The notes below the pieces were generated by a model, which searched no databases, had not been told where the DNA came from, and was given only the letters and a program-made list of their open reading frames with translations. Below, in pieces: positions 12,620 to 21,769 of a stretch of 64,000 nt of DNA. Numbering within the stretch: position 1 is the stretch's first letter; every line of letters starts with the position of its first letter. The stretch is taken from the NCBI RefSeq assembly GCF_005795905.1, contig NZ_VAWE01000001.1, positions 1,612,001 to 1,676,000 on the forward strand. Reading direction: 5' to 3'. Both the position numbers and the translations under genes were made by a program. The stretch is from Streptomyces marianii (GTDB lineage: Bacteria; Actinomycetota; Actinomycetes; Streptomycetales; Streptomycetaceae).

Positions 12620-13048
12620 ATGGCCACGAAGCGCATCACGGGGTTCTCGGACCAGATCATGGCTCTGGTGAAGGCACTGAGGTCCGAGACTCCCGACTGT
12701 GTCGCGGCCGGTGTCGTCGACATGGCGACGGGCATGCTCCTGTCCTACGAGACCGTCGACACACACCCCACAGAGGTCCTGGACCTGCTTGCGGGAGCGA
12801 CTCTGGACCTGTTCCAGGGGCGCACGGTGCTGATGATCGAGGACGTGTTCAAGGAGCGGCGGGGGGTTCAGAATGATCAGCACTATTTCCAGGAGATCCT
12901 GGTGAACAGTGAGAATCTGACCCACTTGTTCATCCGGATGAACGACAGTCAGGACGTCGTCGCGGTGGCGGTGTGCCGCAAGTCGGTGAACGTGGGCATG
13001 CTCTTCGCCCAGGCCAGGCGCGTGATGAAGGAATACGGCGGGATCTGA
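12620..13048 (+). CDS. Second roadblock-like protein
   Basis: A 142-residue protein lying 6 bases after the roadblock gene. The core PDCVAAGVVDMATGMLLSYETVDTHPTEVLDLLAGATLDLFQG again follows the LC7-like strand-turn-strand-helix layout. The C-terminal half has NLTHLFIRMNDSQDVVAVAVCRKSVNVGMLFAQARRVMKEYG. It is more divergent than its neighbour and may be a heterodimer partner. No catalytic residues are evident. Confidence 0.75.
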   Translation: MATKRITGFSDQIMALVKALRSETPDCVAAGVVDMATGMLLSYETVDTHPTEVLDLLAGATLDLFQGRTVLMIEDVFKERRGVQNDQHYFQEILVNSENLTHLFIRMNDSQDVVAVAVCRKSVNVGMLFAQARRVMKEYGGI

Positions 13049-13185
13049 GCCCCGGGAGGATCCGGGGGCCCGGCCTCCGGATCGTCACTGCCGTCTGCTT
13101 GGACAGCCCTTTGGCGCCGGTGACGGCCCACGGGTCCGCTGCCGGCGTTCGGCGCCCGCCCCGAAGGACCGGCTTCCCGCCGGGC

Positions 13186-13265
13186 GGCGGCCGAGGAGGG
13201 CGCCGGCCGGCTCACCTTCCTCCGCTCCCTCGTCGCCCGCGGCCTGACCGGTGTACAACTCGTCG
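13186..13265 (+). pseudogene. Vestigial IS256/mutator-type transposase fragment
   Basis: The frame AAEEGAGRLTFLRSLVARG followed by LTGVQLVVETSHPGR matches the core of mutator transposases, which read W-x-x-FLRSLxARGLxGVxLVxSDAHxGL. Only about 26 codons are recognisable and the flanks do not continue the homology. It lies in the otherwise empty 13.05-13.4 kb gap. Confidence 0.45.
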
Positions 13266-13405
13266 TCGAAACGTCGCACCCGGGACGCGCACCGCGACGC
13301 GGAGCGCGGACGGTCCGCCCTCCGAAGCCGGCAGCCTGCCGACCGCAGCTCTCCCGGACGTGGTTCCGGCGTCCCGGCCGCCGCGAGGGCCCGCGGAGAC
13401 CGAAC

Positions 13406-13447
13406 GCACCGGGGCCGCCCCGCCCTCTCGGGGGGCGGCCCCGGTGC
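13406..13447 (-). terminator. Strong terminator of the CNNM operon
   Basis: GCACCGGGGCCGCCCC (13406-13421) is perfectly complementary to 13432-13447, a 16-bp stem with a 10-base loop, located 27 bases past the stop of the minus-strand CBS-domain gene. Confidence 0.85.
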
Positions 13448-13473
13448 GAATGCGCGGTCGGAGCGCTCGCCGG

Positions 13474-14499
13474 TCAGGCGACCGCGTCGGGAGCCGGACC
13501 CACCAGTTCCTCCAGGACGTCCTCCATGGTGACGAAGCCGATGACGGTGCCCTTGGTGCCGGTGACGGCGGCGAGATGGGTGCCGGCGCCCCGCATGGCG
13601 GTCATGGTGTCGTCGAGGGGGGTGTCGATGGCGACCTTGATGATGGGGTGGAGGGCCGTGCGCGGGAAGGGCTTCGTGCGGTCGGCGGCGCCGAGCGCGT
13701 CCTTGATGTGCAGGTAGCCCAGGATCGCACCGCTCTCCGCGACCACCGGAAGGCGGGAGAACCGGTTGGCGACGGAGGCCTTTTCCAGGCCCTGGGGGGT
13801 GATTCCGGCGCCGACGGTGAGCATCTTGTTGAGCGGCACCATCACCTCGCCGACCGGCCGGGTGCCCAGTTCCAGCGCGTCCTGCAGTCGCTCGCCGTCC
13901 TCCGGTTCGAGGAGCCCGGCCGCGCTGGAGTCCTTGACCAGGCGGGCCAGTTCGTCGTCGGTGAAGACCGAGGCGACCTCGTCCTTCGGCTCGACCCTCA
14001 GCAGTCGCAGGAGGGCGTTGGCGAAGGCGTTGATACCGAAGACCACCGGTCGCAGGGCCCGGGTCAGCGCCACCAGCGGGGGGCCAAGGAGCAGCGCGGT
14101 CGGCGCCGGGGCGGCGAGGGCGATGTTCTTCGGGACCATCTCGCCGACGAGCATGTGCAGATACGTCGCCAGCGTCAGCGCGATGACGAACGCGATCGGG
14201 TGGATCAGCGCCGCCGGGACGCCGATGGCGTGGAACGGGGGCTCCAGCAGATGGGCGATGGCCGGTTCGGCGACGGCACCCAGCACCAGCGACGACACGG
14301 TGATGCCGAGCTGGGCCGTGGCCATCATCGCGGACAGGTGCTCGATGCCCCAGAGGGTGGTCCGGGCACGCCGGTTGCCCTTGACCGCGGCCGGCTCGAT
14401 CTGGCTGCGGCGCACGGAGATCAGGGCGAACTCGGCTCCGACGAAGAAGGCGTTGGTGACGAGGGTGAACGCACCGATCAGCAGCTGGAGGGTGGTCAT
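13474..14499 (-). CDS. CNNM/HlyC-CorC-type CBS-domain membrane protein (second of pair)
   Basis: A 341-residue protein with a DUF21/CNNM transmembrane domain (about 1-190; TLQLLIGAFTLVTNAFFVGAEFALISVRRSQ, then LVGEMVPKNIALAAP). A tandem CBS pair follows (GTRPVGEVMVPLNKMLTV to GTKGTVIGFVTMEDVLEELVG). It lacks the C-terminal CorC_HlyC domain that its upstream neighbour has. ATG 14499 overlaps the neighbour's TGA by four bases (ATGA), so the two are translationally coupled. CNNM-type proteins are linked to magnesium or cobalt efflux; the older name hemolysin is misleading. Confidence 0.88.
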   Translation of the reverse strand: MTTLQLLIGAFTLVTNAFFVGAEFALISVRRSQIEPAAVKGNRRARTTLWGIEHLSAMMATAQLGITVSSLVLGAVAEPAIAHLLEPPFHAIGVPAALIHPIAFVIALTLATYLHMLVGEMVPKNIALAAPAPTALLLGPPLVALTRALRPVVFGINAFANALLRLLRVEPKDEVASVFTDDELARLVKDSSAAGLLEPEDGERLQDALELGTRPVGEVMVPLNKMLTVGAGITPQGLEKASVANRFSRLPVVAESGAILGYLHIKDALGAADRTKPFPRTALHPIIKVAIDTPLDDTMTAMRGAGTHLAAVTGTKGTVIGFVTMEDVLEELVGPAPDAVA

Positions 14500-15830
14500 C
14501 GGGTCTCCTCCGCGCTCTGCGCCACGGTGACGGGGGCGGTGATGCGGACACGGTCGGCACGGTGGTGCTCGGTGTGGAGCACGGCGAGCCGCCAGCCGTC
14601 GACGTCGAGGCGGTCGGCGGTGGTCGGAATGCGCTCCAGGCGCATGGCGATCAGTCCCGCCAGGGTCTCGTACGGGCCGTCGGGCGCGACGAAGCCGATC
14701 TCCCGGAGCTGGTCGATACGGACGCTGCCGTCGGCGTGCCACACCGGACGGCCGTCGAGCGCGGGCTCGGCGGGCGCCAGGTCGGGCGTCTCGTGGGGGT
14801 CGTGCTCGTCGCGGACCTCGCCGACGACCTCCTCGACGATGTCCTCGACGGTGGCGACACCCGCGGTGCCCCCGTACTCGTCGATGATCACGGCCATGGT
14901 GCGGGCCCTGCGCAGCCGGCCGAGGAGCTTGTCCACGGGCAGCGAGTGCGGCACCAGCAGGGGCGCAGTGGCCAGGTCGGCTATCGGTGTGAGCGGCCTC
15001 TTGTCCTCGTCGAGGGCGAGGACGTCGCGGATGTGCACGGTGCCGATGACCTCGTCGAGGCTGCCCCGGTAGACCGGGAACCGGGACAGACCGGTGGCGA
15101 GGGTGAGGTTCGCCGCGTCGGTCGCCGTGGTCTGCACTGCGAGGGCGCGGACGTCGACGCGGGGTGTCATGACGTTCTCCGCGGTCAGCTCGCCCAGGTG
15201 CAGGGTGCGGACGAACAGCTCGGCCGAGTCGGCCTCGATGGCGCCCTCCCGGGCCGAGTGCCGCGCGAGCGCGATCAGTTCCTCCGGGGTACGGGCCGAC
15301 GCCAGCTCCTCGGCGGGCTCCAGCCCGAAGCGGCGCACGATCCGGTTCGCGGTGTTGTTCAGGTGGTGGATCAGCGGTCCGAAGGCGGCGGTGAAGCCGC
15401 GCTGCGGCCCGGCCACGACCCTGGCCACGGCGAGCGGGCGCGAGATCGCCCAGTTCTTGGGCACGAGCTCGCCGACCACCATCAGGACGACGGTCGAGAT
15501 CGCGACGCCGAGCAGTGTCGACACGGTCGGGACGGCGCCGGAGGGCAGTCCCACCGCCTCAAGCGGGCCGCGCAGCAGGGCCGAGACCGACGATTCCGCG
15601 AGCATGCCGATCACCAGCGAGGTCACGGTGATGCCCAGCTGGGCACCGGACAGCTGGAGGGTGAGGCGTTTCACGGCCTTGAGGGCGCTCTCGGCGCCCC
15701 GGTCGCCGGCCCGCGCCGCCCGCTCCAGCTCACCGCGTTCGACGGTGGTGAGGGAGAACTCGGCCGCGACGAAGACGGCACAGGCAAGCGTGAGCGCCAG
15801 GGCGACGAGCAGCAGGAGCACTTCGGTCAC
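14496..15830 (-). CDS. CNNM/HlyC-CorC-type CBS-domain membrane protein (first of pair)
   Basis: A 444-residue protein with all three parts of the family. The DUF21 membrane domain has FVAAEFSLTTVERGELERAA and VVLMVVGELVPKNWAISRPL. A CBS pair runs from TAENVMTPRVDVRALAV to IIDEYGGTAGVATVEDIVEEVVGEV. The CorC_HlyC domain is at the C-terminus (DGSVRIDQLREIGF...YETLAGLIAMRLERIPTTAD). GTG 15830 is preceded by GGGAGG eight bases away. The two paralogs probably form a heteromeric divalent-cation transporter. Confidence 0.9.
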   Translation of the reverse strand: MTEVLLLLVALALTLACAVFVAAEFSLTTVERGELERAARAGDRGAESALKAVKRLTLQLSGAQLGITVTSLVIGMLAESSVSALLRGPLEAVGLPSGAVPTVSTLLGVAISTVVLMVVGELVPKNWAISRPLAVARVVAGPQRGFTAAFGPLIHHLNNTANRIVRRFGLEPAEELASARTPEELIALARHSAREGAIEADSAELFVRTLHLGELTAENVMTPRVDVRALAVQTTATDAANLTLATGLSRFPVYRGSLDEVIGTVHIRDVLALDEDKRPLTPIADLATAPLLVPHSLPVDKLLGRLRRARTMAVIIDEYGGTAGVATVEDIVEEVVGEVRDEHDPHETPDLAPAEPALDGRPVWHADGSVRIDQLREIGFVAPDGPYETLAGLIAMRLERIPTTADRLDVDGWRLAVLHTEHHRADRVRITAPVTVAQSAEETR

Positions 15831-16104
15831 CGTGCCACCTCCCGGCCCTCGGAGAACGGCGGGCGGGACGGGGCACGGCTGGGACTGGGAGGTTCACCCA
15901 TTGCGGGTCTACTGCTCCTTCGTGGCTCGGTGGACCGGGATCGGCCCTGTTGGGGTCATGGTCGGGACAGTGTCCGCCGAACCATGGTAAAGGAGGGGTA
16001 AAGCAGCTGACCATTCCCTTTGCACTGGCCAACCGTGGCGTTTTCGGCCGTTCCGGGGCCACCCCCGTGTGCGCGGGCCGCGGCGAGAGCTCCGCTCCTA
16101 TGCT

Positions 16105-16120
16105 TCTACATGCGTGTAGA
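16105..16120. promoter_or_regulatory. BlaI-type operator upstream of spo0M
   Basis: TCTACA-TGCG-TGTAGA is a 6-4-6 dyad of the TACAN4TGTA type bound by BlaI/MecI repressors. The same arms recur at 18837-18852, between the blaI gene and terD. This copy is 148 bases before the spo0M start, in a position to overlap its promoter. Confidence 0.75.
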
Positions 16121-16267
16121 CAACGCCAAGGGCGGTACGGGATGTTCCCGCGCTGCGGGATGTTCCCGGCGACGAGGAGCGATGCCCACGGGCCCACCCC
16201 GTCCGTCCGTGCGGCATCCGCCGCGTCGTCCCGCAGGAACCCCGCACACGAAGGAGTGAACGCCACG

Positions 16268-17323
16268 ATGGTGTTCAAGCGACTGCTCGGTTCGATCGGC
16301 GTCGGAGGCCCGGCCGTCGACACGGTCCTCGCCCCCGGAGCCGTCCCGCCCGGCGGCAGCCTCACCGGCGAGGTCCGGCTCGAGGGCGGGGACACCGCCT
16401 TCGAGATCGAGCACATCACCCTGGAGTTCGTCGCCCGCGTCGAAGCGGAGACCGAGGAGACCGACGAAGGGGAGCATGAGGCGGAGGTCGCCTTCGAGCG
16501 GATCACGGTGGGCGGCGGGTTCCGGCTCGACCCGGGCGCGCGGCACGTCGTCCCCTTCGCGGTGACGGTGCCCTGGGAGACGCCGCTGACCGAGCTGCAC
16601 GGGCAGGCGCTCGGCGTCGTGCTCGGTGTGCGCACGGAGCTCGGCGTGGCCGGCGCCCGGGACAAGAGCGACCTGGACCTGCTGGCCGTGCGGCCGCTCC
16701 CGGTGCAGGAAGCGGTCCTGGAGGCGTTCGGGCAACTCGGCTTCGGCTTCCGGTCCGCCGATCTCGAGTACGGGCACATCGGGGGGACGGGGCAGTCGCT
16801 GCCCTTCTACCAGGAGATCGAGCTCACCCCGCCCCCGCAGCACACCCAGGCGGTCGACGAGGTCGAGGTGACCTTCCTCGCCGGACCCGGCCGGGTGGAG
16901 GTGGTCCTCGAGGCGGGCGGGCGCGGAGGGCTGTTCGCGGGCGGGCACGACGCACTGACCCGCTTCGACGTCGCCCACGAAGAGGCCGGCGACACGGACT
17001 GGAACGCCAGGGTCGGCACCTGGCTGCACCATCTGCTGGAGCACCGCTCCGGCCCCGCCGCGCACGGGCCGCACGGGGGCGACGCCACCCACGGCCTGGC
17101 CCACGGCAGCGGGCACGAGGACCACCACCACACCGATCGTCACGGCCACCACCACGGCGGGCACCACGGACCCGGCACGGGCGCCGCCGTGGCCGTCGGC
17201 GCGGCGGGCCTGGCCGTCGGCGCGGGCATCGTCGGCGCGGAGGTGGTGGACGAGATCGGCGACGCCCTCGAGGACGAGGGCCCGGACGGGAGCGACGCGG
17301 AAGGCGAGGGCGAGGAGGACTGA
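16268..17323 (+). CDS. spo0M: Sporulation-control protein Spo0M
   Basis: A 351-residue arrestin-fold protein. Residues 1-245 are the Spo0M domain: MVFKRLLGSIGVGGPAVDTVL, PPGGSLTGEVRLEGGDTAFEIEHITLEFVARVE, FPVPWETPLTEL-like and DKSDLDLLAVRPLPVQEAVLEAF. Then comes a His-rich stretch (about 285-300, HEDHHHTDRHGHHHGGHH) and a short glycine/alanine hydrophobic helix with an acidic tail. The His-rich segment may bind metal and is not part of the core fold. AAGGAG is 11 bases upstream of ATG 16268. Spo0M affects sporulation and stress responses in Bacillus and is widespread in actinobacteria. A BlaI-type operator upstream links it with the blaI and terD genes nearby. Confidence 0.88.
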   Translation: MVFKRLLGSIGVGGPAVDTVLAPGAVPPGGSLTGEVRLEGGDTAFEIEHITLEFVARVEAETEETDEGEHEAEVAFERITVGGGFRLDPGARHVVPFAVTVPWETPLTELHGQALGVVLGVRTELGVAGARDKSDLDLLAVRPLPVQEAVLEAFGQLGFGFRSADLEYGHIGGTGQSLPFYQEIELTPPPQHTQAVDEVEVTFLAGPGRVEVVLEAGGRGGLFAGGHDALTRFDVAHEEAGDTDWNARVGTWLHHLLEHRSGPAAHGPHGGDATHGLAHGSGHEDHHHTDRHGHHHGGHHGPGTGAAVAVGAAGLAVGAGIVGAEVVDEIGDALEDEGPDGSDAEGEGEED

Positions 17324-17324
17324 C

Positions 17325-17392
17325 GGCACGGCGGGCCCTCCCGTGCCCGCGCCACGGCTTGCGGGGAATCAAGGCGTTGCTTCCCTGCAAGC
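17325..17392. terminator. Paired hairpins between spo0M and the M56 protease gene
   Basis: GGCACGG (17325-17331) pairs with CCGTGCC (17341-17347). GCTTGCGGGGAA (17357-17368) pairs with 17381-17392 with one G-T pair. Both lie between the stops of convergent genes. Confidence 0.7.
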
Positions 17393-17394
17393 CC

Positions 17395-18333
17395 TCACAG
17401 CGGCGTCGCGGCCTTCAGCACCAGGAACAGCACCACTGCCGAGTTCGCCGACGACAGCGCGGACACCGCCGCCCCCGCCGCGGCGGTCCAGAGCGCCACA
17501 CCCGCGGCGGTGAAGGCGGGCGGCCAGGTCCCGGCGGGCGGCACCGGCCCCAGCAGAGCGGCGACCCTCCGCGGCACGGGTCCCGTGGCGAAACCGGCCG
17601 CAAGCGGGAACGGGGCGCCCCGGGACACCAGGCCCGCCTTGCCGACCGCCCTGGCCGTCACGCGCCGGTCGCCGATCACCCCGGCGGCCTCCTCGTCCGC
17701 CCAGCGCTCCGCGCAGTAGACGACGGCGGTGCGCAGGGGGCGCAGGAACGGATTGGCGCGGGAGGCCAGCCGGGCCGCGAGGAGATGGCGGTGGTGGCCC
17801 GCGGCCAGATGCGCGCGCTCGTGCGCGAACAGGGCGCGGCGCTCACGCGAGTCGAGACGGGCCAGCATGCCGGTGGACACCACGATCCGGCCGCGCACCG
17901 GGCCCCGGCCGCCGGGCAGGGCGTAGGCGTACGGCGAGTCGTCGGGCAGCACCGCGACGGGGGACGGCGGCAGCCCCTCCAGGGCGCGCTCCGCCCGGCG
18001 CCGGACGCGGTGGTGCCGCCACACCGTACGGACCGCGGCCGCCGCCACGGCGACCAGTGCGGGGATGGCGGCCTTGCCGACGACCTCGTCGTACGGGACC
18101 GCCTCGCGCACCGCGGCGTCGGACCAGGTGTCCGGCAGCGGGTTGCCCGGCAGTTGCGCGGTACCCACCACCATGATGAGGGCGAGGCAGAGGGTGCTGC
18201 ACAGGGCCATCAGGGCGCCGACCCCGGCCAGGAGACGCGTGGCGGTGCGGGGGTGCAGATGCTGCTCGGCGAGGCGTGCGATCGGCCAGGCCGTCAGGGG
18301 CAGCACCAGCGGCAGGAAGACGAAGACGCCCAC
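17395..18333 (-). CDS. M56-family (BlaR1/MecR1-like) membrane metalloprotease
   Basis: A 312-residue protein with an N-terminal pair of membrane segments ([42 protein letters not shown]), a third near residue 90 and another near 290. The zinc site is HERAH at about 168-172 ([18 protein letters not shown]), with the downstream glutamate likely in [10 protein letters not shown]. This is the BlaR1/MecR1 protease core without a penicillin-sensing domain. It follows blaI by 4 bases, the standard sensor-repressor pairing. By analogy it would cleave BlaI in response to an unknown signal. It is usually annotated only as M48/M56 peptidase. Confidence 0.85.
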
Positions 18334-18337
18334 CCGG

Positions 18338-18748
18338 TCACTCCTCGGGATCGTCGTCCGTGTGGCCGAGCAGTTCGCGCAGCACCCGCTCGTCCTCGGG
18401 GGACAGGGAGGTGACGAAGCTGGTGAGCACCGCCTCCCGGTCCCGTTCCCCGTCGAGGACGCGGCGCATGCGCAGCGCGGCGAGCCCCGCCTGGTCGGCG
18501 GTCGCCTCCCAGGCGAACGACCGGCCCTCCCGCTGCCTGGTGACGGCGTTCTTGGCCCGCAGCCGGGACAGGATGGTCATGACGGTGGTGTAGGCGAGCC
18601 GCCCGGGCAGGCGCTCCTGCACCCAGGCGGCGGTGACGGGTCCCGGCGCGGTCCTCAGCACCGACAGCACCTGCGCCTCGAGCTCGCCCTGTCCGCGCCT
18701 GCGTCCACCACCCGCAGGGAGCGAGCCGGCCGTTTCACGGTTGCCCAA
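18338..18748 (-). CDS. blaI: BlaI/MecI/CopY-family repressor
   Basis: About 136 residues from TTG 18748, chosen because AGGGAGG lies five bases upstream. The alternative ATG at 18790 has no ribosome site and would add 14 arginine-rich residues. The winged helix is clear: [65 protein letters not shown]. The C-terminal dimerisation helices have the usual [15 protein letters not shown] 16-bp dyad about 90 bases upstream, and a second before spo0M, are likely binding sites. The gene is divergent from terD and co-oriented with the M56 protease. Confidence 0.9.
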
Positions 18749-18836
18749 CTCCGCCTCCCTCCGGCCTCGTCCGCGGCCTCGCGGCCTCATCGTACTGACC
18801 CACGGCGAGTCGGAGCGCGTCACCGGACGGACAATT

Positions 18837-18852
18837 TCTACACTGCTGTAGA
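18837..18852. promoter_or_regulatory. BlaI-type operator between blaI and terD
   Basis: TCTACA-CTGC-TGTAGA has the same arms and spacing as the site before spo0M. It sits 71 bases before the terD ATG and 89 before the blaI TTG, so one site could control both divergent promoters. Confidence 0.82.
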
Positions 18853-18922
18853 TTTCGAGTGTTCGCAGTTCCGTCGCCCGTGTGCCGCCGCACCCGGGCA
18901 CACACACGTGAGGAGAACCGGT

Positions 18923-19498
18923 ATGGGCGTGAGCCTCGCCAAGGGCGGCAACGTGTCACTGAGCAAGGAGGCACCGGGCCTGAGCGCGGTCCTGGTCGGA
19001 CTGGGCTGGGACGTCCGCACGACCACCGGCACCGACTTCGACCTCGATGCGAGCGCACTGCTCCTGGACGACTCGGGCAAGGTCGCCTCGAACGGGCACT
19101 TCGTCTTCTACAACAACCTCACCAGCCCCGACGGCTCCGTCCAGCACACCGGCGACAACCTCACCGGCGAGGGCGAGGGAGACGACGAGCAGATCAAGGT
19201 GAACCTCGCCACGGTGCCCGCCGACGTCACCAGGATCGTCTTCCCGGTGTCCATCCACGATGCCGAGGCCCGCAGCCAGAGCTTCGGCCAGGTCCGCAAC
19301 GCCTTCATCCGCGTCGTCAACCAGGCGGGCGGGGCCGAGCTGGCCCGCTACGACCTCTCCGAGGACGCCTCCACCGAGACCGCCATGGTGTTCGGGGAGC
19401 TGTACCGCAGCGGCGACGAGTGGAAGTTCCGTGCCGTGGGCCAGGGTTACGCCTCGGGACTGGCCGGCATCGTCTCCGACTTCGGCGTGGCGGTCTGA
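18923..19498 (+). CDS. terD: TerD-family stress/tellurium-resistance protein
   Basis: A 191-residue TerD/CABP protein. It has the family's opening [47 protein letters not shown], the [23 protein letters not shown] calcium-binding region, and FVRVV-like [22 protein letters not shown] near the end. Length and motifs are complete. GAGGAG is upstream of ATG 18923. TerD proteins bind calcium and help tellurite and oxidative-stress tolerance and, in streptomycetes, differentiation. Here it is a lone paralog divergent from a BlaI-type repressor, not within a ter operon. Confidence 0.93.
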
Positions 19499-19526
19499 CG
19501 CGAAGGGCTCCCTCGTACGGCGGAAC

Positions 19527-19571
19527 GCCGCCCCGGGGCGAACGGCAGCGCGCCGTTCGCCCCGGGGCGGC
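19527..19571 (+). terminator. Terminator of terD
   Basis: A perfect 20-bp stem (19527-19546 with 19552-19571) with a 5-base loop, starting 29 bases past the terD stop. Confidence 0.85.
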
Positions 19572-19593
19572 TCCTTCCGCGGCGCTGCGGCAG

Positions 19594-20010
19594 TCAGGCG
19601 ACGAGGGTGACGCCGCCGTCCCTCGGCGGGTCGGTCTCCTGCGACGGCCCGGGGAGCGGACCGGCGGTGGCGGGCAGGGGCATCCGCCCCGCCGCCTCCT
19701 CCAGCAGCGCGTCGGCCCGTTCGATCAGGGCACCGGTCCCCGAGGCGTCGGCGAGCCCGGTGAGCGACACGGTGACCAGCAGCATGGGGATCAGCGCCAG
19801 TACGGCGTAGTACGTCAGTGCCGCGGCCCAGTCGGTGACGTCGCCGTGCCAGGCGGACACCGGCGTCCGGCGCAGGGCGGTGAGCAGATCGCCCCGCGGG
19901 GGCGGCACCCCGCCGCGGCCCAGTCGGTGACGTCGCCGTGCCAGGCGGACACCGGCGTCCGGCGCAGGGCGGTGAGCAGATCGCCCCGCGGGGGCGGCAC
20001 CCCGGACGGG
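19594..20010 (-). pseudogene. YihY/BrkB membrane protein, N-terminal remnant
   Basis: The minus strand reads RGDLLTALRRTPVSAWHGDVTDWAAALTYYAVLALIPMLLVTVSLTGLAD, the first cytosolic and membrane segment of YihY/BrkB proteins. After about 45 more residues with no further membrane segments it stops at 19594, so most of the roughly 300-residue protein is missing. The coding start region is duplicated in tandem by a 92-bp repeat, which is not a multiple of three and puts the upstream copy out of frame. No start or ribosome site is convincing. It lies just past the terD terminator. Confidence 0.6.
19821..20004. repeat. 92-bp tandem duplication in the yihY remnant
   Basis: The segment beginning CCGCGGCCCAGTCGGTGACG at 19821 recurs at 19913 with essentially no changes. 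The lack of divergence suggests a recent duplication. Confidence 0.88.
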
Positions 20011-20472
20011 GTGCCGTCCGGCGCGGGCCCGCAGGCGTGGACGGCGCCCGCGTCGGCCGCTGCTGGTGGTCCTCGCGGACGGCCACGACGCCGTGGACAG
20101 CCGGGGCCACACGGACGGCCCGGGCGCCTCGGACGGAGAGAGCGACCGATGAGCGGCAGTCGACGTGGTGCTGATGGACGTCCCACGCGTCCGGTCACGG
20201 TGCATGTCGTCTCCTGTCGCGGGGGGCGCTCCGGTCCGCGTGCCCGTGCGCGACCGATCGACGCGGGGCGGTCGGCGGCCCCGGACGCCTGCCCGCGTCC
20301 CACCCGGCCATCCGTCCCGCGCGGCCGCCACCGGGCGGGTATGTCGTGGCCCCGGGTGTCCGATGCCGGTAAAAAGATATGGTTGCGGTGGCGGGGACGG
20401 CCTCTGCCTCTGGATCTGCGGCGCTGCCACGGCCCGCGAAATGAGGGTGACCGATTCGGGGTGTCGGAAGGT

Positions 20473-20973
20473 ATGGACGCGAACCACTCTGCTTCCGGGC
20501 CTCGCCGGCGCGACGACCCGGCGGTGGGCCACGAGTTCGTCGAACTTCTCGAGGCCCTGTGGACACGGGGCCGTGAGGTGCCCTACGCCCCGGTCTCCGC
20601 GTCGCAGCTCCGCGTCCTCTACACCCTCGACCGCGACGAGGGGATCAACCTCCGCACCCTGGGCGAGCTGCTGGGATCGGCCCCTCCCTCCGTCAGCCGG
20701 CTCTGCGACCGGCTCGAGGCACTCGGCTTCGTCCGGCGCCTCCCCAGCCAGGTGAGCAGGCGCGAGCTGGAGCTCCATCTGACCAGCCGCGGCCGGACCT
20801 ACCTGCAGGAGCTGCGAAGCCGCAGGGACGCGTCGCTGCTCGAAGTGATCGCCGCGATGACTCCGGCCGCGGCCAGGTCCCTCCTCCTGGGCCTGTCGGG
20901 CTTCCGGGACGCGCTCGGCGAGACGGGCTCCGCACCGGGGCTGCGCCCGGCCGACAACGCACGTTCCGCCTGA
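20473..20973 (+). CDS. MarR-family regulator (paralog 1)
   Basis: About 166 residues with a MarR winged helix: VSASQLRVLYTLDRDEGINLRTLGELLGSAPPSVSRLCDRLEALGFVRRLPSQVSRRELELHLTSRGRTYLQEL. It is close to the next gene over its whole length. ATG 20473 is taken by analogy with that paralog; an in-frame GTG at 20461 would add four residues. Both genes have GATATGGTTGC about 80-170 bases upstream, a possible shared promoter or operator element. Ligand and targets are unknown. Confidence 0.8.
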   Translation: MDANHSASGPRRRDDPAVGHEFVELLEALWTRGREVPYAPVSASQLRVLYTLDRDEGINLRTLGELLGSAPPSVSRLCDRLEALGFVRRLPSQVSRRELELHLTSRGRTYLQELRSRRDASLLEVIAAMTPAAARSLLLGLSGFRDALGETGSAPGLRPADNARSA

Positions 20974-21247
20974 CCGCCCGCCGGGCCCCGTCCGAGCGGT
21001 CCTGCGAGGGGGCGTTCTTCACGCCCGCCACACCGGATCGTCAACCGATCGGCACAAGGATCGGCGGCCGGTCGGGTAGTCGGGGGAGGGATATGGTTGC
21101 CCCCATACCCGCCTCGTGCCCGCGCGACGACGCCGCTCGCCGGAATCCCGGCCACCGGTATCCGTCCGGCGCCGGGGCGCGCGAGGCAGGGGCGCGGCAC
21201 CGGGTCCGCGGCATCGGCGGAGCACGTCTGATTTGGGGTGTCACGGC

Positions 21248-21769
21248 ATGAGCACGAGTCCGGCTCCACACTCGCGGCGGGCGACCGATGCGGCACGAGC
21301 GGCCTGCGACGTCATCGAGATGCTCGAGATCCTGTGGGAGCGGGGCAGGGACACCGCCTCGGCCGTCTCCGCCTCGCAGCTCCGGGTGCTGTACAGCCTG
21401 GAGCGCGCCGACGGGATCAATCTGCGCACGCTCGGCGACGTCCTGGGCTCGGCGCCGTCGTCGGTCAGCAGGCTGTGCGACCGGCTGGAGGCCATGGGAC
21501 TCGTGGAACGCACCCCCAGCCCGGTGAGCCGCAGGGAGCTGACGATCCGCCTGACCGGTCACGGCCGGGCGTACCTCTCGGAGTTGCGCTCCCAGCGCGA
21601 GGAGGTCCTGCTGGCGGCGATCGAGGCGATGGACCCCGCGTCCCGAGCGGCGCTGCTCGAGGGTCTCCACGGATTCCGGGACGCCGTGGTGGCCGACGGT
21701 GACCGCAGCCCCGGTCCGGACGGCGCCGGGAGCGCACGCCAGGACGGCGGTTCCGCGGGGCACGCGTAG
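21248..21769 (+). CDS. MarR-family regulator (paralog 2)
   Basis: A 173-residue MarR protein whose core SASQLRVLYSLERADGINLRTLGDVLGSAPSSVSRLCDRLEAMGLVERTPSPVSRRELTI is nearly the same as the gene 275 bases upstream, including the recognition helix SAPxSVSRLCDRLEA. The pair most likely arose by tandem duplication. GGGG lies about eight bases before ATG 21248. The 21090-21112 region upstream has an imperfect dyad around TATGG and CCATA, which could be its own operator. Confidence 0.85.
   Translation: MSTSPAPHSRRATDAARAACDVIEMLEILWERGRDTASAVSASQLRVLYSLERADGINLRTLGDVLGSAPSSVSRLCDRLEAMGLVERTPSPVSRRELTIRLTGHGRAYLSELRSQREEVLLAAIEAMDPASRAALLEGLHGFRDAVVADGDRSPGPDGAGSARQDGGSAGHA

Follow-up and report, generated by a model that had tools for sequence, protein, structure and literature searches.

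A putative BlaI operator class connecting a repressor–protease gene pair with spo0M and terD in Streptomyces marianii

Which genes does a BlaI-family repressor govern when its gene lies between spo0M and terD, and what would release it from them? The question was raised by a 64,000-bp stretch of the Streptomyces marianii genome (contig NZ_VAWE01000001.1, positions 1,612,001 to 1,676,000; genome size 9,010,366 bases, 9.01 Mb), referred to here as the window. An earlier note had proposed, from two dyads with identical arms, a BlaI circuit that joins a repressor–protease pair to spo0M and terD, a sporulation-control gene and a stress gene, as an output distinct from beta-lactamase. Comparative genomics strongly supported the control of both genes by one BlaI and an output other than beta-lactamase; the sporulation part was not upheld. 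It is probable that a BlaR1-like protease without a sensor domain clears BlaI under envelope stress and so derepresses a regulon of ter, spo0M and wall genes. The locus runs in the order CNNM/CBS gene (reverse strand), operator 1, spo0M (forward), protease (reverse), blaI (reverse), operator 2 and terD (forward), with the following features.

16099–16104, forward strand: -10-like box TATGCT of spo0M, directly 5' of operator 1, identical in three close relatives
16105–16120, no strand: putative operator 1, TCTACATGCGTGTAGA, exact match
16268–17323, forward strand: spo0M, Spo0M family, 351 amino acids (aa), ATG at 16268 (Pfam PF07070, E 1e-72)
17395–18333, reverse strand: BlaR1-like membrane zinc metalloprotease without a sensor domain, 312 aa, GTG start
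18338–18748, reverse strand: blaI, BlaI/MecI/CopY-family repressor (PF03965 Penicillinase_R, E 1.6e-23)
18789–18794, reverse strand: -10-like box TACGAT of blaI, 42 bp from operator 2
18837–18852, no strand: putative operator 2, TCTACACTGCTGTAGA, exact match
18849–18854, forward strand: -10-like box TAGATT of terD, overlapping the right arm of operator 2
18923–19498, forward strand: terD, 191 aa (Pfam PF02342, E 3.6e-87)

Both dyads had the same exact arms and a 4-nt spacer (TCTACA-N4-TGTAGA), as the earlier note had read them. They were the only such dyads in the window with up to two mismatches; in 100 shuffles the mean count was 0.09 and the count was always below two. The genome scan proposed in the note located the exact motif at two places, both in the window, and the reversed pattern at none; about 0.017 exact sites per genome were expected from the base composition of the window. 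In 121 genomes of the genus, 200 exact sites were found in 75 genomes, against 3 sites of the reversed pattern in three genomes (G005, G048, and G081). In 293 genomes of the order, a sample partly overlapping that of the genus, the motif was present in 201 genomes spanning 8 of 9 genera, and the reversed pattern numbered four (G285, G287, G340, and G372). Genome G034 had seven exact sites. Sites with up to one mismatch were no commoner in this genome than for the control (9 vs. 9, the two exact ones included), as would be expected of chance palindromes; the excess of exact sites over the reversed pattern in the genus, their position outside called genes (196 of 200) and their recurrent targets leave that explanation hardly credible. 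The motif is thus best described as a conserved operator class, to which binding is putative.

The genome held three spo0M matches and 13 TerD matches, and the exact sites served one gene of each kind, the terD of the window being the sole TerD match that adjoined an exact site. One-mismatch sites were considered as extra regulon members and rejected as a class, given the equal count in the control. One of the seven inexact sites, C1:217210, adjoined regulon genes: it precedes a gene for a 73-aa protein, followed by the second spo0M. The circuit may accordingly be wider in this genome than two promoters; this site is a candidate only, because inexact sites were no commoner than the control. 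The 73-aa protein (L005:1243-1425, near C1:217000) was conserved and had no Pfam match, and its gene recurs in the regulon of other genomes (7 sites).

The dyads were placed by the earlier note exactly before spo0M and between blaI and terD. The positions held, yet dyad 1 ended 147 bp before the spo0M ATG, where it directly follows the TATGCT box, and dyad 2 lay 42 bp outside the blaI box. The 16-mer of operator 1, spacer included, and the 10 bases on its 5' side were identical in loci L012, L013, and L014. With sites oriented by their targets, TATGCT or TATACT stood immediately 5' of the operator at 13 of 17 spo0M sites. At 44 of 55 terD sites and 11 of 15 tatA sites, TGTAGATT was read (TGTAGA, then TT); the TAGATT within it can serve as a -10 box and overlaps the right operator arm. 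A search of 15830–19000 for consensus promoters and terminators found none.

The blaI start is more likely the TTG at 18748 (136 aa), which lies behind GGAGG, than the ATG at 18790 (150 aa); BlaI residues are numbered below by the 150-aa form. Upstream of blaI, a TAnGAT/TAnCAT box (TACGAT, TAGGAT and the like) was present in 49 of 80 loci, namely 27 with a site and 22 without (the window and 79 named loci were scored; one further locus lacked the anchor). Over the 27 loci the box lay 16–256 bp from the operator. Operator 2 was present in L012 and missing along with terD in L013 and L014, both of which kept the blaI-side box. In L029, L030, L033, and L057 (Kitasatospora and kin), a TTAGGATG box upstream of blaI was kept with no recognisable operator. 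From this arrangement, operator 2 appears to belong mainly to terD, and blaI would be made from its own promoter. Strict autorepression of blaI is doubted, since its conserved -10-like box stands 42 bp past the operator in the window and is also kept in the 22 site-less loci.

The 200 sites of the 75 genomes were fetched as 143 regions plus the window, and genes were called with a codon-usage script; a target was a gene starting at most 400 bp from the site and facing away from it, and Pfam names were taken from 20 representatives. Targets were blaI (66), terD (55), terB-like (46), spo0M (17), and tatA-like genes (15), followed by acyltransferase (11), DedA (10), LytR-CpsA-Psr (9), CNNM (8), and the 73-aa gene (7). 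Smaller groups were a membrane gene without a match (5), GlsB-like (4), ion channel (4), UppP (4), PAP2 (4+2), and MarR (3), and the remainder were single cases. The genes of the window itself fell in the spo0M, blaI, terD, CNNM, and protease clusters, and across species the circuit extends beyond two promoters. Sites lay a median of 62 bp from the start of terD, 61 bp from that of both terB and spo0M, and 103 bp, with a wide spread, from that of blaI. Nine sites, the four intragenic ones among them, had no called start within 400 bp that faced away from them. Two of these four (L124, L253) fell where the 73-aa gene had been called too long and may therefore also be upstream of it. In the consensus of the 10 DedA sites, a further operator, degenerate in sequence, followed after about 19 bp, which suggests that dimers are paired there.

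BlaI was searched in 80 of the 121 genomes, comprising all 46 motif-negative and 34 motif-positive ones; at most 48 candidates per genome were scored, so some absences may be false. A match (E at most 1e-15) was found in 34 of 34 motif-positive and 21 of 46 motif-negative genomes (Fisher p 1.9e-8); 29 of the 34 and 12 of the 46 had a close match (E at most 1e-38). Five positive genomes were left with more distant BlaI proteins only, and in G018, G051, and G038 a site directly adjoined the gene of one. The motif therefore belongs to a BlaI group that is wider than the strict orthologues. All 25 genomes in which BlaI had no match were free of sites. Missing targets do not account for this, because a close TerD was present in all 25; nor does a general absence of BlaI-family proteins, because 24 of them matched the second regulator of that family in this genome (23 at 72–86% identity), which adjoins a gene read from its open reading frame as lsr2-like.

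Eighty named loci were also picked by BlaI similarity. Exact sites, 91 in all, were present in 57 of them, and the reversed control gave 0 in 883,023 bases. A site occurred in 40 of 41 loci with spo0M or a terD of at least 70% identity, vs. 17 of 39 loci without. In nine named loci, terD, blaI, protease, and spo0M all stood together. Among the search matches, the closest named relatives by BlaI were S. wuyuanensis (93%) and Streptomyces sp. I6 (94% across residues 7–150), and by the protease Streptomyces sp. HNM0645 (97%); the best plasmid BlaI matches were at most 69% identical. S. wuyuanensis had two BlaI–protease loci (L028 and L012), each with spo0M and sites.

Two results weigh against BlaI as the protein that acts at these sites. 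Any TACA-N4-TGTA was lacking in 22 of the 80 named BlaI loci, and the region upstream of blaI in these 22 offered no other spacing and no dyad common to more than two loci; the circuit has thus been gained and lost, or another site is used there. In addition, 75 of the 200 sites lay in fetched regions without a gene of the BlaI cluster. The operator role of the sites is predicted from sequence, and another regulator might bind them, with blaI a mere neighbour or a further target. The confinement of the site to BlaI-matching genomes, among those tested, argues against this, as do its place beside divergent BlaI paralogues (G018, G051, G009, G014, and G029) and the TACA/TGTA half-sites, which match those reported for BlaI, MecI, and CopY. 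The target kinds of the 75 sites were the same as elsewhere, which suggests action in trans. A different regulator is accordingly judged improbable, and BlaI is kept as the likely repressor.

The product of blaI belongs to the BlaI/MecI/CopY family by its Penicillinase_R domain (83.7 bits vs. a cut-off of 22.6). In a profile search, its best match among solved structures was 2g9w (9e-12), which we take to be M. tuberculosis BlaI, Rv1846c; similarity to that protein was only moderate. The M. tuberculosis BlaI regulon reaches beyond blaC to atp, sigC, and ftsQ; the passages that list these targets name neither ter nor spo0M. All 30 sequences compared had Phe125, which in a weak alignment (E 0.69) coincided with the Phe of the MecI Asn-Phe. 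The scissile bond of S. aureus BlaI lies between Asn101 and Phe102. The residue before Phe125 was mostly Ser, which recalls Ser283-Phe284, the cleavage site of BlaR1 itself.

The earlier note had further described the gene after blaI as a BlaR1-like M56 protease, a description that stood for the motifs and, on a moderate model, may hold for the fold. H171ExxH175 and E209xxxD213, the gluzincin motifs of BlaR1 and MecR1, were invariant in 62 sequences; the best structural match was S. aureus BlaR1, so the protein may resemble the membrane and protease module of BlaR1. The M56 assignment did not stand in the same way: M48 (PF01435) exceeded its cut-off (2.4e-13), and M56 (PF05569) stayed below its own (20.2 bits vs. 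31); NCBI names the close relatives of the protein 'M56 family metallopeptidase'. No Pfam sensor domain was found in it. Four hydrophobic segments were present, the last of them immediately followed by the end of the protein (residue 312), with no C-terminal extracellular penicillin-binding sensor. The first extracellular loop (residues 57–82, 26 residues) was highly conserved. A gene of the protease cluster followed 64 of 78 blaI genes.

The likeness to the S. aureus BlaI-BlaR1 and MecI-MecR1 systems covers the repressor family, the gluzincin membrane protease (HExxH and ExxxD), the TACA/TGTA half-sites, and, less surely, the conserved Phe at the presumed scissile site. The locus differs from them in its 4-nt spacer, in the missing extracellular beta-lactam sensor, and in its outputs, terD, spo0M, and envelope genes. 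The missing sensor rules out, as the signal, any beta-lactam captured by a BlaR1-type domain of the protease itself. Beta-lactams could still act through a separate penicillin-binding protein: one site (L138) faces a transglycosylase/transpeptidase gene, the single penicillin-binding protein among the 20 target representatives scanned, and the protease is otherwise BlaR1-like. None of these representatives was a beta-lactamase, which bears out the note on this point, and the recurrent targets were ter, tatA, DedA, UppP, PAP2, and LCP (LytR-CpsA-Psr) genes; a beta-lactam signal is considered quite improbable.

CopY is of the same Pfam family as BlaI. A rival with a small, though not negligible, share of our confidence holds that BlaI represses and that its antagonist is a ligand, as copper is for CopY, or another protease. 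The lack of a sensor domain in the neighbouring protease would fit it, as would the sole NCBIfam match of BlaI, CopY_TcrY, which was far below cut-off, and neighbourhood by itself is no proof of cleavage. Against it stand the regular succession of blaI and protease genes, the invariant catalytic motifs and the invariant Phe. The BlaI of the window has no cysteine and therefore no CopY-type Cys-X-Cys, and a protease neighbour takes the place of metal sensing. The CopY operator is a palindromic TACA..TGTA with a 2-nt spacer, TACANNTGTA (PMC7253601); with 4 nt in both sites, the dyads are not CopY-type operators.

Cleavage by the neighbouring protease thus remains the preferred route of release, and BlaI binding, repression, cleavage, and the nature of the signal are what we infer for it. 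RNA polymerase would be blocked by BlaI dimers on TCTACA-N4-TGTAGA, which at spo0M lies immediately 3' of the -10-like box and at terD covers it. The zinc protease would sense envelope stress, probably via its first transmembrane segment and the 57–82 loop, and would cut BlaI, most likely before Phe125, whereupon spo0M and terD would be derepressed. Elsewhere in the order, the same operator class fronts a larger envelope-type regulon with terB, tatA, DedA, LytR-CpsA-Psr, UppP, PAP2, and CNNM.

Envelope stress is the simplest reading of the output, to which both the remaining target genes and the sigma-W regulon of B. subtilis point. Sigma-W answers envelope stress, and YceC-E are of the TerD family. 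In a B. subtilis sigW mutant, spo0M was among the most strongly lowered genes (core sigma-W), and the yceC-H operon comprised secondary sigma-W genes (PMC3498285). That regulon thus holds spo0M and the yce operon, like the two outputs here; it is governed by an extracytoplasmic function (ECF) sigma factor, in place of the repressor–protease pair. Spo0M was rejected as evidence for sporulation control, which rested on the gene name; neither an exact site nor any of the listed inexact ones lay close to the third spo0M of the genome (C1:6762609).

Around the locus, an Rfam scan of 13000–21000 (up to E 0.1) gave no RNA element near CNNM or spo0M, and PADLOC gave no anti-phage match for the four proteins. 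A perfect 92-bp tandem duplication (19820–20003) stands where a reading frame of 104 aa begins, which covers only the first part of a BrkB/YihY domain (residues 3–56 of 259), so the gene looks truncated. A tandem pair of similar MarR-family genes occupies 20524–21769 on the forward strand. A prior description of a BlaI-ter-spo0M regulon was not among the matches listed in literature searches, whose coverage left out most subscription papers.

Little is understood of what the widespread Ter proteins and Spo0M do. A repressor–protease switch over Ter, Spo0M, lipid-carrier, and wall-polymer genes offers a handle on them: once the trigger of the protease is found, the stress that they answer becomes known. 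More tentatively, and with less conviction than for the locus itself, the switch may be a general one of Streptomyces and the order, in which the first transmembrane segment and the 26-residue loop let the protease read directly the state of the membrane or of undecaprenyl-linked wall intermediates, and BlaI couples Ter and Spo0M to lipid-carrier recycling by UppP, PAP2, and DedA and to the attachment of wall polymers by LytR-CpsA-Psr. If so, it would be the repressor–protease counterpart of the Bacillus sigma-W response. The repressor–protease switch over Ter and Spo0M would also suggest that the BlaI-BlaR1 mechanism is an envelope-sensing device, with the beta-lactam sensor among its possible additions.

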